Positions 39,301 to 47,669 of a stretch of 47,669 bases of DNA are shown here, piece by piece. The stretch's first letter is position 1; every line of letters starts with the position of its first letter. The DNA comes from Oscillospiraceae bacterium (GTDB lineage: Bacteria; Bacillota; Clostridia; UMGS1810): NCBI GenBank assembly GCA_015069095.1, contig SVJH01000016.1:1-47669 (forward strand). The letters are read 5' to 3'. The position numbers and the translations under genes were made by a program. Under the pieces are notes generated by a model. It was not told the DNA's origin. It searched no databases and saw only the letters and a program-made list of their open reading frames with translations.

Positions 39301-39330
39301 AAAAACGGTGCCGCACGGCACCGTTTTTTA
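39301..39330. terminator. Bidirectional terminator between GH3 and the BppU-like gene
   Basis: AAAAACGGTGCCG (39301-39313) pairs with CGGCACCGTTTTT (39316-39328). A and T runs on the two sides let it act in both directions between these convergent genes. Confidence 0.93.
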
Positions 39331-40614
39331 TGATTTAAGTTCATATCTTTCAAGTACTTTGTTAATATCTTCAAAATAAGTAATTTCAAAATTTGAATTT
39401 GAATAAATACTGCATTTGCCTTTGTATGGCGCAAAATTTAAAATTTCTTTTCCGTATGATGTATCTGAAATATCTGTAAATTCACCATTTTCAAATATTT
39501 CAACTTTGCTGTTGTCTGTGTAAATATAGGAAGTATCACTCATCTGTGGAATGTCAATTTCAAATTTGTTTTCAAGTTTGTTTTCCGGTAAGTTATCTTT
39601 TGTATATTCGCCTGCATAAACTCCAACATCCAAAAAACCGTCATAACTGTAATTTTGCATCTCGTCAGTGGAAAAATTATACCAGATTCTAATGTAACGT
39701 ACAGTGGCATTTTTTTCTAGTATAATAGTTTCTGTACGATGTGCTGTCGCAATTTGTTTGTTGTTGCTGTCGTACATAATAATGTAAGGATATATATTGT
39801 TGACAGAATTTGTAACAGTATATGGAATGTCTTTATATAATGTAAAAGGTTCGACATCGAAATAAACAGAAAAATTACCGCGTGATGCTGTTATAGATTC
39901 CGTTTTCAAATTGTCAACGTATACCTTATTGTCTTTTGCAAATAAAAAGTCTTTTGCAGTATTGTTAAATATGTTGTTAACAGACAAAAATTTTGCCATA
40001 TTTCCACCGTCAGAGCAGATAAGTTTTGAAGATGTATTGTTTCCATATATTTTAAGGTTCTTCTTTATCCCTTGAGAGCCTTCAAAATAAGCATAGTTAC
40101 CACTTAGTGTTTTTGATGGTTGATTGTCATATAAATTTTGCGCATTTTGTGTAAGTGATTCACATCTTTTTGAAAGGTCCTCACATTTTTTTGTAAGTTC
40201 CAAAGAAGTATTATTTAAATCTTCACATTTTTTTATAAGGTTTTCAAGTATTGGAAGTTTGTTGTCTGCTATAGCAGCATTTTTGCAGTTAATTTCTTCT
40301 AAAACTTCAAAGTAAAAAGTATTTGTGGTAATTCTCTCGTTTTCGCCTAAAAAACTAATTTCGCACATAACATTTCCAAATTGATTTAAAATATCATTTT
40401 CTACGATATACTTAACAGTTCCATCTTCAATCGTATAATTATTACTCACATAAATCTTCATATTTGGAAGTTTAAATTTTAAAATAGCAGAGTCAAATTC
40501 AAAATCGGTGTTGATTATAAACAGGGCGGAATTATAATCGTTTTGTTTGATTTTAATGTCTGTTTTTAGTACATCGTAATTCTCGGTTGACAAATTGATA
40601 ATGTATTCTTTCAT
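39328..40614 (-). CDS. BppU-like phage baseplate upper protein, isolated
   Basis: A 428-residue protein. Residues ~1-108 resemble the N-terminal domain of BppU-type baseplate proteins: beta-rich, with TVKYIVENDILNQFGNVMCEI and TTNTFYFEVLEEI. Residues ~118-165 form a coiled coil with a repeated KKCEDL-x(4-8) unit. The remaining ~260 residues look beta-rich and could be a receptor- or carbohydrate-binding head; no family is recognised. The SD AAAGGAGGTGA is excellent, and an extended -10 (TGATACAAT at ~40646-40638) may serve it. No other phage gene is nearby. Confidence 0.7.
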   Translation of the reverse strand: MKEYIINLSTENYDVLKTDIKIKQNDYNSALFIINTDFEFDSAILKFKLPNMKIYVSNNYTIEDGTVKYIVENDILNQFGNVMCEISFLGENERITTNTFYFEVLEEINCKNAAIADNKLPILENLIKKCEDLNNTSLELTKKCEDLSKRCESLTQNAQNLYDNQPSKTLSGNYAYFEGSQGIKKNLKIYGNNTSSKLICSDGGNMAKFLSVNNIFNNTAKDFLFAKDNKVYVDNLKTESITASRGNFSVYFDVEPFTLYKDIPYTVTNSVNNIYPYIIMYDSNNKQIATAHRTETIILEKNATVRYIRIWYNFSTDEMQNYSYDGFLDVGVYAGEYTKDNLPENKLENKFEIDIPQMSDTSYIYTDNSKVEIFENGEFTDISDTSYGKEILNFAPYKGKCSIYSNSNFEITYFEDINKVLERYELKS

Positions 40615-40759: not shown

Positions 40760-41539
40760 ATGAAAAAATTATTAAGTTTAGTATTAGTACTTTGCCTATG
40801 TGCAGGTATATTTGTAGGATGCAGCGGTCCTAAAAAAGTTGAAAAAATTGATGATTTAAAAGGTGCAACAATTGGTGTTCAACTTGGAACAACAGGCGAT
40901 ATTTATGCATCAGATTATGAAAAAGACGGTTCTAAAATTGAAAGATACAACAAAGGTGCAGATGCTATTCAGGCATTAAAACAGGGTAAAATTGACTGTG
41001 TTATCATTGACAGCGAACCAGCAAAAGCATTTGTAGCAAAAAATGATGATCTTAAAATTTTGGAAGAACCTTTTGCGCTTGAAGAATACGCAATTGCAGT
41101 TTCTAAAGATAAAAAGGAACTTACAAATCAGATTAACGAAGCACTTAAAACATTAAAAGAAAACGGAACACTTGACAGTATTATTAAAAACTACATAGGT
41201 GATGATACAAAAGGAAAAACACCTTATGTTTCTCCAGAAGGTATTGTAAGAGACGGTAAACTTGTAATGGCAACAAATGCAGCATTTGAACCATATGAAT
41301 ACATTCAGAATAGTAAAATAGTTGGTATTGATGCTGATATGGCACAGGCTGTTGCAGATATTTTAGGAAAAGAACTTGTGATTGAAGATATGGAATTTGA
41401 TTCAATTATCGCAGCAGTTCAGTCTGGAAAAGCAGATATCGGTGTTGCAGGTATGACAGTTACAGAAGAAAGACTTAAAAACATCGATTTTACAGATTCA
41501 TATACAACAGCAACACAGGTTATAATTGTTAAAAAATAA
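40760..41539 (+). CDS. Amino-acid ABC transporter binding lipoprotein, circularly permuted
   Basis: A 259-residue lipoprotein (signal ~1-20, lipid Cys21 in FVGCSG) of the SBP_bac_3 family that captures polar amino acids outside the cell. The order of its parts is reversed. Residues ~29-147 contain the blocks that normally form the second half (DDLKGATIGVQLGTTGDIYA, YNKGADAIQALKQGKIDCVI, ALKTLKENGTLDSIIKNYI). Residues ~166-259 contain the blocks that normally come first (GKLVMATNAAFEPYEYI, FDSIIAAVQSGKADIGVAGM, TEERLKNIDFTDSYTTATQV). All elements of both lobes are present once. Permease and ATPase genes follow. Confidence 0.92.
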   Translation: MKKLLSLVLVLCLCAGIFVGCSGPKKVEKIDDLKGATIGVQLGTTGDIYASDYEKDGSKIERYNKGADAIQALKQGKIDCVIIDSEPAKAFVAKNDDLKILEEPFALEEYAIAVSKDKKELTNQINEALKTLKENGTLDSIIKNYIGDDTKGKTPYVSPEGIVRDGKLVMATNAAFEPYEYIQNSKIVGIDADMAQAVADILGKELVIEDMEFDSIIAAVQSGKADIGVAGMTVTEERLKNIDFTDSYTTATQVIIVKK

Positions 41540-43171: not shown

Positions 43172-45205
43172 ATGTACTGTGAAAATTGCGGTGCTAAAAA
43201 TGAAGATGCAGCAAAAGTTTGCGTAAACTGTGGAAATATTTTGCAAGAAGATGCTGTAGAAACAGAAAACACAATCCCACAAGAAGAAATTGTGGAAACA
43301 ACTGTTGTTGAAGAACCTGTTGTTGAAGAAACACCTGTTCAGGATGAACAACTTATGGCAGAAGTTAATGCAGATATAGAAAAACCTGCTCCTTCTAAAA
43401 AACCATTCCCTGTAAAATGGGTTGTAACTGGCGCTATTGCTATTGTTGCTGCCATTTTAGTATTCTTTGGTGCTAAATGGATTATGGGTATGTTTGGTGG
43501 TTCTGGAGATGAATATGCATATCTTAACCGTCCTGTTATGTTTGTACAAAACGGTAACGTTATGATGTATAAATCTAACTTTAAAGAACCAGTAAAAGTT
43601 GGTAAAGTGGAAAACTTTAGTACAGCTAAGTATACTGAAGATGGTTCAAAAGTTTTCTTTATCTATGATAAAAAACTATACTACCGTGATGTTTCTGAAA
43701 AAGAACCAAAAGGCGATAACGCTGATAGTTATGGTGTAAAAATTTCAAGAGGCGATGTTTATTCGTTTGAAATCAGTAAAAAAGGCGATTTCGTACTTTA
43801 TAACAGAGAAAATAAATTATATGCAAGCAATCTAAAAGGCGATCCTATTTCAATTACAAACGATGTATCAGATTACTCTTTGAGCGAAAATGGAAAAACT
43901 ATTGTATATGCAAAAACAGTAGATAACGAAAAAGTATGGTATACACGTGGCACAGGTAAAAATGATGAAGCCGTAAAAATTGGTTCAGGTATTAACATTG
44001 AAGCAAAAGTTGGCGACGGATTTGAAAAAATTTACTTTGTTGATGAAGGTAACTTATACTTAAAAGAAGGTAAAAAAGAAAAAGTTAAAATTACATCTGA
44101 CGTTGAAACTGGTTGCTTAGATTATGAAGAAGTTGACGACAAAGATTACTTATTCCTTAAAAAAGCAACTAAAGTTAAATATACATATAACGATCTTATG
44201 GAAGATGACTGCAAAGATGATCCTAAGGACCCAGAAGCACCTGAAAGACCATATCAGTCTGATGATGAATTCTTAATTGAAGGCGAAGACGGTTCTGAAG
44301 AATACGATGAAGAAGCTTACGAAAAAGCTCTTGAACAGTATGAAAAGGATTACGAAGAATATTTAGCAATCGAAAGACGTAATCAGATTAGAGAAGATTT
44401 GAAAGATGTAGAAAAAGAAGTTAACACATACACATACTACAAACTTGATGGCACAAAAATGAAAGAAATTGCAAAAGATCTTACTTCTGCATCAGGTGTA
44501 TTTGTAACAAAAGCCGGAGAATCAAATGTGTCAAAAATCAAGATAAGTTCTCTTGAATATTCATATGATTTCAACAGCAAAGTTGATGAAATGTTCGCAA
44601 ATGGCGAAGGCGGAGAAAAATTCTTAGTAAAACTTGATGGTACACTAATTCCTTACACACTTGAAGATGAACTTCAGATGATAACAAAAGACTTCAAATA
44701 TGTTTATCTGCTTGAAGGAAAACCAGAAGAATCTTCAAAAGGCAGAACACTTGTTCGCTATGAAATTACAAAATCAGGTTTGAAATCAAGAAAAGAAATC
44801 GCAAATGATGTTACAAGATGCTATACTCCTGATGTAGACAGAGATGATTTACTTGTAGAAATTAAAACAGGTGAAACAACTGTTGGATTTGGATTGTATA
44901 ATGGTAAAAAATTCGAAAAGATTTCAGAACATATAAGCAGTGTTTATGATGTTGAATATGTAAAAGGTACTGTTTATTACGTTGAAGATCCAAGTAATAC
45001 TTCTGGTGTAGGTACACTTAAAAAGTGGAAAAACGGAAAAGATACAAAGATCTCTGACGATGTTCATGATTTTGTTGTAAGAAAAGACGATAAAGTTTAC
45101 TACATTAAAGATTTCAGTGAAAAAACATATAAAGGCGACCTTTATCAGTCTGGTAAAAAAGATGCAATAGCTGAAGGCGTTTCAAGTATTGGTGTAGGTT
45201 ATTAA
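43172..45205 (+). CDS. Zinc-ribbon, membrane-anchored beta-propeller-like protein
   Basis: A 677-residue protein. It starts with a zinc ribbon (CENCGAKNEDAAKVCVNCG, residues ~3-21), then an acidic linker of ~45 residues, one membrane helix (residues ~84-106, VVTGAIAIVAAILVFFGAKWI), and ~570 residues on the other side. That part has repeated short beta motifs (YAYLNRPVMFVQNGNVMMY, KVFFIYDKKLYYRDVS, GKTIVYAKTVDNEKVWY), suggesting a propeller like DUF5050/TolB proteins, interrupted near residue 350 by an acidic coiled segment. By charge the zinc ribbon faces the cytoplasm. SD is AAGGAGG. Confidence 0.8.
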   Translation: MYCENCGAKNEDAAKVCVNCGNILQEDAVETENTIPQEEIVETTVVEEPVVEETPVQDEQLMAEVNADIEKPAPSKKPFPVKWVVTGAIAIVAAILVFFGAKWIMGMFGGSGDEYAYLNRPVMFVQNGNVMMYKSNFKEPVKVGKVENFSTAKYTEDGSKVFFIYDKKLYYRDVSEKEPKGDNADSYGVKISRGDVYSFEISKKGDFVLYNRENKLYASNLKGDPISITNDVSDYSLSENGKTIVYAKTVDNEKVWYTRGTGKNDEAVKIGSGINIEAKVGDGFEKIYFVDEGNLYLKEGKKEKVKITSDVETGCLDYEEVDDKDYLFLKKATKVKYTYNDLMEDDCKDDPKDPEAPERPYQSDDEFLIEGEDGSEEYDEEAYEKALEQYEKDYEEYLAIERRNQIREDLKDVEKEVNTYTYYKLDGTKMKEIAKDLTSASGVFVTKAGESNVSKIKISSLEYSYDFNSKVDEMFANGEGGEKFLVKLDGTLIPYTLEDELQMITKDFKYVYLLEGKPEESSKGRTLVRYEITKSGLKSRKEIANDVTRCYTPDVDRDDLLVEIKTGETTVGFGLYNGKKFEKISEHISSVYDVEYVKGTVYYVEDPSNTSGVGTLKKWKNGKDTKISDDVHDFVVRKDDKVYYIKDFSEKTYKGDLYQSGKKDAIAEGVSSIGVGY

Positions 45206-45226
45206 TTCTTATAGAGAGGACAAGGT

Positions 45227-45820
45227 ATGGGCGAATTACTTGATAAAATGAGCATTGGTACACGTTCAATGGCTGAAAAAGCAAGACTGGAAAAAGAAAT
45301 CCAGAATATGGAAAACGATAAATATCAGTTAGCGCTTATTGCCGGTAATAAAGTTTATAAATATTTTATGAACAATTCAGAGGGGGATATACCTCGTAGC
45401 GAAATTGAAAGTATTTGTAATGAAATTACAGAACGTAACAACAGAATTGTTATGCTTAAAGGAAAATTGAACGAATTGGCTGCTGAAGTTGAATATCTTA
45501 TGAATGCTAATTTAAATCCGTATTCACAACCTGCGCCATATCAAAATGTACCAAATCAATATATGCAGCAAGGAGCAAATCCATATGCTCCACCTGTACA
45601 AAATCAGTATGCACAGCAGAGTATGCCAAATCAATATGCAACTTCGCAAAGTGCACCGAATCCTTATCAGCCTCCTGTACAAAATGGATACAATGTACAA
45701 CAGGCAACAAGTCAGGCTCAAAATCCTGTGCAGCAATATCCGGGTATGTGCTCTTGCGGATTTGTAAACAGTCCGACTTCAAAGTTCTGTGCTAAATGCG
45801 GAACAAAACTTGAAAAATAA
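45227..45820 (+). CDS. Coiled-coil, Gln/Pro/Tyr-rich linker, C-terminal zinc-ribbon protein
   Basis: A 197-residue protein in three parts. Residues ~1-95 are helical and probably coiled coil (EKARLEKEIQNMENDKYQL). Residues ~98-170 are a low-complexity linker rich in Gln, Pro, Asn and Tyr, with NPY-x-PPVQN-x-Y repeated. The end is a zinc ribbon (CSCGFVNSPTSKFCAKCG), in which the first pair is CXC rather than CXXC. No membrane segment. It lies 21 bases after the propeller gene, on the same transcript. Confidence 0.78.
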   Translation: MGELLDKMSIGTRSMAEKARLEKEIQNMENDKYQLALIAGNKVYKYFMNNSEGDIPRSEIESICNEITERNNRIVMLKGKLNELAAEVEYLMNANLNPYSQPAPYQNVPNQYMQQGANPYAPPVQNQYAQQSMPNQYATSQSAPNPYQPPVQNGYNVQQATSQAQNPVQQYPGMCSCGFVNSPTSKFCAKCGTKLEK

Positions 45821-45831
45821 ATAGTCAAAAT

Positions 45832-45870
45832 CGTTCTTGGCGTTTTAATTAAGCGTCAAGAACGTAATTT
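45832..45870 (+). terminator. Hairpin between zinc-ribbon genes 2 and 3
   Basis: CGTTCTTGGCG (45832-45842) pairs with CGTCAAGAACG (45854-45864) with one G-U pair; the stem continues partly inward. TAATTTTTG follows, so it may be a leaky terminator. Confidence 0.7.
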
Positions 45871-45902
45871 TTGAAAATAAAAAGAAAAGGGGGGAATTTG
45901 AG

Positions 45903-46436
45903 ATGAAAGAAATTCAGAGCTCATTAACTAAAAAGTTTTCTGAAAACAATATAACAAATATGCTTATGCAGTTTGCAGCAATTTTGCTTTATGTATATGC
46001 TGGTTATAGAGTTTTATCATTGATAATGTCATTTGTTGATGAACCAAGTAAAACTATTTATGATATTTTGAACTTCGTTGGTATATTTGCATGGTATGCA
46101 TATCTAATCGGTTTAATTTTCTGTTTTGCTAAAAATAATTTTACACCAATTTTAACTGTATTTGCTATTAAAGCATTAGCAGAAATAATCGGATTTATCA
46201 GATATATTACAGGTGATTATACAACATTCATTACTATCATTAGTTATTTAGTAGACGTTGCAGTATATTGCCTATTAACATTTGGTGCATATACACAGTT
46301 TGCAAAAACTCGCGTAGTAGCTGGTTTTGCAAGACCAATGGGTGCTGCTCCAGCAACAAAATTCTGTCCATCATGTGGAAAACAGGTTCCTGCTGATGCA
46401 CCTTTCTGTAATAACTGCGGTAACAAATTGATGTAA
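45903..46436 (+). CDS. Four-helix membrane protein with C-terminal zinc ribbon
   Basis: A 177-residue integral membrane protein. Hydrophobic segments lie at ~20-45, ~58-80, ~83-105 and ~113-137, followed by a short loop and a zinc ribbon (CPSCGKQVPADAPFCNNCG, residues ~155-173). With four helices the C-terminal ribbon is on the same side as the N-terminus, probably the cytoplasm. SD is AAGGGGGG. I do not recognise the membrane domain. It is the third gene of the plus-strand zinc-ribbon run. Confidence 0.78.
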   Translation: MKEIQSSLTKKFSENNITNMLMQFAAILLYVYAGYRVLSLIMSFVDEPSKTIYDILNFVGIFAWYAYLIGLIFCFAKNNFTPILTVFAIKALAEIIGFIRYITGDYTTFITIISYLVDVAVYCLLTFGAYTQFAKTRVVAGFARPMGAAPATKFCPSCGKQVPADAPFCNNCGNKLM

Positions 46437-46440
46437 TTAA

Positions 46441-46484
46441 ATCATAAAAAAAGAGCGTTTTTATAAACGCTCTTTTTTTATGAT
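46441..46484. terminator. Bidirectional terminator, 20-bp perfect inverted repeat
   Basis: ATCATAAAAAAAGAGCGTTT (46441-46460) is repeated in reverse complement at 46465-46484 with four bases between. It separates the plus-strand from the minus-strand zinc-ribbon genes. Confidence 0.93.
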
Positions 46485-46488
46485 TTTT

Positions 46489-47016
46489 TTATAAATCTCC
46501 GGCTCTGTGTAAAAACGGATTTTTTTGAGTATCTGGTTTTGTTGGTGGTACAGATTCTTCTGGAACTATGTCTGGTTCTTTGATGGCTGAACCTTCCAAA
46601 TTTGCACCGCAATTTTTACAAAACTTAGCAGTCGATTTGTTATTTGCACCACAATAATTACATATATTTTCAGGGATTGGTGCAGGTGTTATCGCTTCTT
46701 CTTCAAGTAATATTTCGCAATTTTTACCAATTTCTTCATTGACGACGTTAACTTCGCCACTGTGTTTACAAACAGTTTCATCGTCAAAATTATCAGAAAC
46801 AACCGGTGCTTCTTCTCTTAGCAAAGAATTTCCACATCCTTTACAAAATCTTGCGTCAGGCTTATTTAGTGTACTGCAAGAGGGGCAAATGTTATCCGGT
46901 TCATAAGAGGTGTTGACATCTGGCATCACAGTAGTAAAAGGATTGCCACATCCCTTGCAAAATTTTGCATCAATTTTATTTTCAGTATTACATATATTAC
47001 AAGTTTTTATTTCCAT
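46489..47016 (-). CDS. Multi-zinc-ribbon protein with conserved C-terminal tail
   Basis: A 175-residue soluble protein with three intact zinc ribbons at residues 6-23, 44-61 and 119-136 (pattern CX2C-X10-CX2C, usually ending FCKGCGN), joined by acidic linkers. A fourth, degenerate ribbon (CKHSGEVNVVNEEIGKNC, 83-100) keeps the exact length but has lost two cysteines. The tail PDTQKNPFLHRAGDL matches the tail of the next protein upstream. No membrane segment or enzyme motif. It is 13 bases after that gene and shares its promoter. Confidence 0.8.
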   Translation of the reverse strand: MEIKTCNICNTENKIDAKFCKGCGNPFTTVMPDVNTSYEPDNICPSCSTLNKPDARFCKGCGNSLLREEAPVVSDNFDDETVCKHSGEVNVVNEEIGKNCEILLEEEAITPAPIPENICNYCGANNKSTAKFCKNCGANLEGSAIKEPDIVPEESVPPTKPDTQKNPFLHRAGDL

Positions 47017-47029
47017 ATTTATTCTCCTT

Positions 47030-47380
47030 TTAGTCTAAACTTGGTGCTTTCTTTAAGAATTCGTTGCGTTGTTTATCAGGTGAAGGTTTTAAAGATGATG
47101 CTTTTAGCGTATCAATTCCTACGAGTTTAACAGGTTTTGATTTTGAAGGTATTGGAGTTGGTCTTGATACCACCTTTGGAGAAACCGATTTAATTGGTAC
47201 ACTTGTTGTTGGAGTTCTTTTTGGCGATATCTTTTTTTCTAAAACTATTTCGTTGTCAGGAATTGCAATTATTTTTGTGTTTGTATTTGAATCAAGTTTT
47301 CTTTTGCAACGTTTACAGTAAACACTTGATGAGTTATTTACACATTTACAAAGACTGCATACTTTTGTTTCGCTACTCAT
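47030..47380 (-). CDS. Single zinc-ribbon protein with Ser/Pro/Lys-rich region and conserved tail
   Basis: A 116-residue protein. The start at 47380 is set by GGAGG six bases upstream, and an earlier in-frame ATG at 47440 lies in the promoter. A zinc ribbon (CSLCKCVNNSSSVYCKRC, ~8-25) is followed by a basic, proline- and serine-rich, probably disordered region and the tail PDKQRNEFLKKAPSLD. First gene of the two-gene minus-strand unit. Confidence 0.75.
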   Translation of the reverse strand: MSSETKVCSLCKCVNNSSSVYCKRCKRKLDSNTNTKIIAIPDNEIVLEKKISPKRTPTTSVPIKSVSPKVVSRPTPIPSKSKPVKLVGIDTLKASSLKPSPDKQRNEFLKKAPSLD

Positions 47381-47460: not shown

Positions 47461-47669
47461 AAATATTATGGGCGCTTCAAGTTCGAATTTTAAGTAAACA
47501 AAAATTGAGGCCAAACTTTCGACTTGCTTTTGGCTTAAGATGGAGAGATTTGCCCTAACGGGCACTGTTGAAACTAAGCATCGTGCAAAGTACTTACTTG
47601 CACTCTGCAAGTTTCTGCCACTCCTTATTGCTCGCTTCATCGTCCGTGTGGACGCGCTCACAAACGTCC
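47461..47669. other. GC-richer, hairpin-dense region without a supported gene
   Basis: The last ~210 bases are visibly richer in G+C than the rest of the window. Hairpins: GCCAAA (47510-47515) with TTTGGC (47529-47534); GCCCTAACGGGC (47552-47563); CTTGCACTCTGCAAG (47597-47611); CGTCCGTGTGGACG (47641-47654). An open frame on the minus strand (47458-47661) encodes a basic 67-residue peptide without a ribosome binding site or known domain. A structured RNA, the edge of a mobile or multicopy element, or an rRNA-operon flank are all possible. Confidence 0.5.

Follow-up and report, generated by a model that had tools for sequence, protein, structure and literature searches.

Layout of the gene pair and its surroundings

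Two minus-strand genes, encoding proteins of 175 and 116 aa, are found at the right-hand end of the window, i.e. the whole 47,669-nt stretch of DNA that was analysed (Table 1). The 116-aa gene has an ATG start and is located 13 bases upstream of the co-directional 175-aa gene. Both proteins follow a common plan, in which an N-terminal zinc ribbon is followed by an unrelated low-complexity linker and the same C-terminal peptide, which we refer to as the tail. The pair is separated by a strong hairpin from three plus-strand genes that encode zinc-ribbon proteins and converge on it; the hairpin is likely to be a terminator common to the convergent gene groups.

Table 1. Coordinates of the tail-bearing gene pair, its parts and the neighbouring hairpin
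Feature	Position	Strand	Basis
20-bp hairpin, T-runs on both sides	46439..46486	.	scored on + strand
175-aa protein with four zinc ribbons, one of them decayed, a short linker and the C-terminal tail common to both	46489..47016	-	translation, Pfam
Tail of 175-aa protein, PDTQKNPFLHRAGDL	46492..46536	-	
Fourth ribbon, 175-aa protein, CxxC-x10-CxxC, residues 119-136	46609..46662	-	translation, Pfam
Decayed third ribbon, 175-aa protein, CKHS...GKNC, residues 83-100	46717..46770	-	register with fourth ribbon
Second ribbon, 175-aa protein, residues 44-61	46834..46887	-	translation, Pfam
First ribbon, 175-aa protein, residues 6-23	46948..47001	-	translation, Pfam
116-aa protein with a single divergent ribbon, a long linker rich in Pro, Lys and Ser and the C-terminal tail common to both	47030..47380	-	translation
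Tail of 116-aa protein, PDKQRNEFLKKAPSLD	47033..47080	-	
Ribbon of 116-aa protein, CSLC-x10-CKRC, residues 8-25	47306..47359	-	alignment to 175-aa protein

The convergent group comprises three more zinc-ribbon proteins in a row (43172-46436, plus strand). The first is a propeller-like protein of 677 aa with an N-terminal ribbon (43172-45205), followed by an apparently coiled-coil protein of 197 aa (45227-45820) and an apparent membrane protein of 177 aa (45903-46436), both with a C-terminal ribbon. In a family relative (G004:C43, L150 8275-10416), three zinc-ribbon genes were found in a run without the tail-bearing pair, and one of them resembles the 197-aa protein by eye. Elsewhere in the window, a 428-aa protein (39328-40614, minus strand) had no Pfam match and looked by eye like phage baseplate or tail proteins. 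Family-3 solute-binding proteins (SBP_bac_3) were matched by a 259-aa protein (40760-41539, plus strand) in two separate stretches, the best of which covered profile positions 1-92 of 132 and ended at the last residue of the protein. The end of the window (47471-47669) recurs as a tandem repeat with a period of 217 bp at the start of contig C5 (1-429) of the same assembly. The contig break is therefore probably located within the repeat, and the locus may continue on C5.

Likeness of the tails and of the ribbons

The initial annotation had proposed that the two neighbouring zinc-ribbon proteins end in a common motif, and this was borne out by direct comparison. The 175-aa translation ends in ...KPDTQKNPFLHRAGDL and the 116-aa translation in ...SPDKQRNEFLKKAPSLD; both contain the pattern P-D-x-Q-[KR]-N-x-F-L-x-[KR]-A-x-x-L, which extends over roughly 15 residues and is defined from two sequences of one species. 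Aligned without gaps over 15 columns, the tails were identical at 8/15 residues and had a BLOSUM62 score of 41, which was reached by 5 out of 5,000,000 shuffles. The tail pair ranked first among all 946 pairs of C-terminal 16-mers of the window; the second-ranked pair, with a score of 37, came from two proteins that each have a zinc ribbon at the C-terminus. Multiplied by the 946 pairs, the chance of such a likeness is ~0.001. These values show that the two tails, as amino acid sequences, are alike well beyond chance.

Either selection or recent copying had been put forward as the reason for this likeness. We found the same codon in four of the eight identical residues, compared with 3.9 expected from a random draw from the codon usage of the window, and 26/45 nucleotides were identical between the two tails. 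A DNA repeat joining the 175-aa and 116-aa genes was not found. Because codons are shared only at the random level and nucleotide identity is 26/45, the likeness of the tails lies at the protein level. We therefore rejected a recent duplication or copying of the tail, which the codon comparison (n=8 codons), the nucleotide identity and the lack of a common DNA repeat make unlikely. This test, for which eight codons are few, leaves two options: convergence, or descent from an old common ancestor with the tail under selection. Of the two reasons initially put forward, selection is the one supported, with amino acids still alike where codons agree at the random level.

The 175-aa protein contains three intact CxxC-x10-CxxC ribbons and a decayed one, in which CxxS and GxxC replace the two CxxC pairs. 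The decayed ribbon is in register with the fourth ribbon, and an equally good match was obtained in 6 out of 100,000 shuffles. Pfam profiles DZR and Zn_Ribbon_1 matched the 175-aa protein with E-values of 5.9e-18 and 1.1e-13, and the protein scored above the curated cut-offs of the zinc-ribbon families PF12773 (DZR), PF13240 and PF13248 (65.2, 50.9 and 46.0 bits; cut-offs: 27.3, 25 and 27 bits). These families describe the ribbon alone, and the tail is included in none of them. The 116-aa protein remained below every Pfam, NCBIfam and PHROGs family cut-off, with no zinc-ribbon family listed, and keeps only the CxxC-x10-CxxC spacing of such families.

The regions preceding the tails had been described as unrelated. 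This description held for the linkers, which gave no convincing alignment, but not for the CxxC-x10-CxxC ribbons, since the N-terminal ribbons of both proteins aligned with a BLASTP E-value of 5e-5 (single comparison). Among the ribbons compared, the best partner of the 116-aa ribbon was the fourth ribbon of the 175-aa protein (score 53); for this fourth ribbon, several other ribbons in the genome were closer than the 116-aa one. With a CxxC-x10-CxxC ribbon at the N-terminus of each, the two proteins look like products of an old tandem duplication. Tandem paralogy within a lineage-specific family is the simplest reading, but it is weakly supported because ribbons resemble one another generally.

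Distribution of the tail

In the genome to which the window belongs, the tail was carried only by the 175-aa and 116-aa genes. With exact motif patterns, which were strict and covered one genome of the genus, nothing comparable was detected besides these two genes in 16 genomes of the family, and the other matches in a 391-genome sample of the class were internal, unrelated, in non-zinc-ribbon proteins or in spurious reading frames. A profile of the tail recovered the two genes from the class sample with E-values of 1.5e-18 and 4.5e-17; the rest of the matches were weak (from 0.007 upward), and none of the weak matches fetched was C-terminal in a zinc-ribbon protein. Searching the class sample with the 116-aa protein yielded generic ribbons only and no orthologue. 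Generic ribbons were also the only result when the C-terminal 63 residues of the 175-aa protein served as query in a 398-genome sample of the phylum, and the alignments outside the window's own genome stopped by residue 58/63. Among 61 zinc-ribbon reading frames in loci fetched from the phylum sample, a similar ending was found only in the two genes.

Scanning 84,980 species with an exact pattern that required A[AG]N at the second basic position gave 13 matches, none of them in a zinc-ribbon protein terminating in the motif; the species scanned may not include the window's own. The only match in viral contigs was internal in a phage protein. In the genomes searched, no orthologue of the 175-aa or the 116-aa protein was found, with or without the tail. 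The search at zinc-ribbon C-termini of related genomes that the initial annotation had suggested thus revealed no further carrier, and we rejected a widespread motif, as the genomes scanned contained no zinc-ribbon protein with a terminal tail beyond the two genes. As far as these searches reach, the tail sequence appears to be restricted to one lineage.

The tails had no Pfam match. SHOCT, in particular, was matched neither in the tails (E up to 10) nor in the whole proteins. Look-ups of the tail proteins in PHROGs and in plasmid and phage collections gave nothing, a profile search of the PDB gave a single match (RadC, E 0.11), and literature searches returned no description matching the tail.

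A putative docking peptide

The FtsZ C-terminal peptide is a short conserved docking peptide that ends a disordered linker and combines a hydrophobic core with basic residues. The tails resemble it in how they might work, as short peptides at the end of a linker, but neither tail-bearing protein is FtsZ. The FtsZ of the same genome ends NDFVIPPFSPKGE (FVIPPFSPKGE), and mimicry of the FtsZ peptide was not supported, N-x-F-L-x-[KR]-A being absent from this end. The C-terminal tip of SSB is a partner-recruiting peptide after a disordered linker; it is acidic and ends in Pro-Phe. The tails are comparable with it in mode of action, as C-terminal peptides following a linker, but have basic residues around Phe-Leu and a terminal Leu or Leu-Asp. 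The beta-clamp binding motif is of the QxxLxF type, in which the fourth position, with Gln as the first, is hydrophobic. The tails do not fit it, since their Q-K-N-P-F and Q-R-N-E-F have P and E, respectively, at this position.

Docking peptides, among them the FtsZ peptide and the SSB tip, are typically short and conserved and are joined to a folded head by a variable linker, an arrangement that the two proteins would match. We give about even credence to the reading that the two genes form a zinc-ribbon pair confined to one lineage, in which the tail docks onto a partner common to both; the partner and the function are what we infer. The 175-aa and 116-aa genes would then have arisen by an old tandem duplication within a lineage-specific family, with zinc ribbons and tail as the working parts and the linker as a spacer that is free to drift. 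The tail would probably fold on binding, presenting one face formed by F, L, A and L and flanked by basic residues, and would allow both proteins to dock to a single common partner or to each other. The multi-ribbon and the one-ribbon protein may compete for the same site or be co-recruited to it. Points against docking are the small number of sequences (two) and of codons (eight), the generic nature of the ribbon likeness, the weak amphipathicity of the tail, and searches that revealed no orthologue in which constraint between species would show.

Plain paralogy is a possible but doubtful alternative, according to which an old tandem duplicate has ends that diverged more slowly than the linkers, and the tail serves fold or stability rather than docking. 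Consistent with this, the genes are adjacent, the proteins follow the same plan and their ribbons can be aligned. A tail of 15 residues after a low-complexity linker is, however, unlikely to belong to the ribbon fold. Packing of the tail is also supported by no predicted structure, although the models were poor: AlphaFold without alignment (single-sequence) reached pLDDT values of 55 and 41 for the two proteins, and the models were not usable.

The spacing F-L-x-x-A-x-x-L in the tail would place hydrophobic residues on one helical face, and together with the basic residues this could indicate an amphipathic helix that binds membranes or a degradation tag at the C-terminus. We consider both improbable. 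The helical amphipathicity is weak (muH 0.24-0.29) and the mean hydrophobicity is negative, which argues against membrane insertion of the tail. Moreover, Pro and Gly occur within the putative helix, and to our knowledge the tail has no resemblance to LAA-type degradation tags. Least probable of all is chance or convergence in a Pro/Lys-rich low-complexity background, which would fit two sequences without a further carrier in the genomes searched but is opposed by the shuffling result, even when corrected for 946 pairs, and by the C-terminal position of both matches in adjacent genes.

Returning to docking of the tail onto a common partner, the adjacent cluster of the propeller-like 677-aa, the coiled-coil 197-aa and the 177-aa membrane protein is a candidate partner by position alone. 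The more far-reaching proposal, that the tail is a new bacterial docking peptide bringing different zinc-ribbon proteins to one partner, possibly of this cluster, appears rather unlikely to us. As it stands, with two sequences of one species, the tail is a local curiosity that opens no general question. If the docking reading is true, the tail peptide would provide a handle, by pull-downs, on the function of zinc-ribbon gene clusters in a poorly sampled bacterial lineage.
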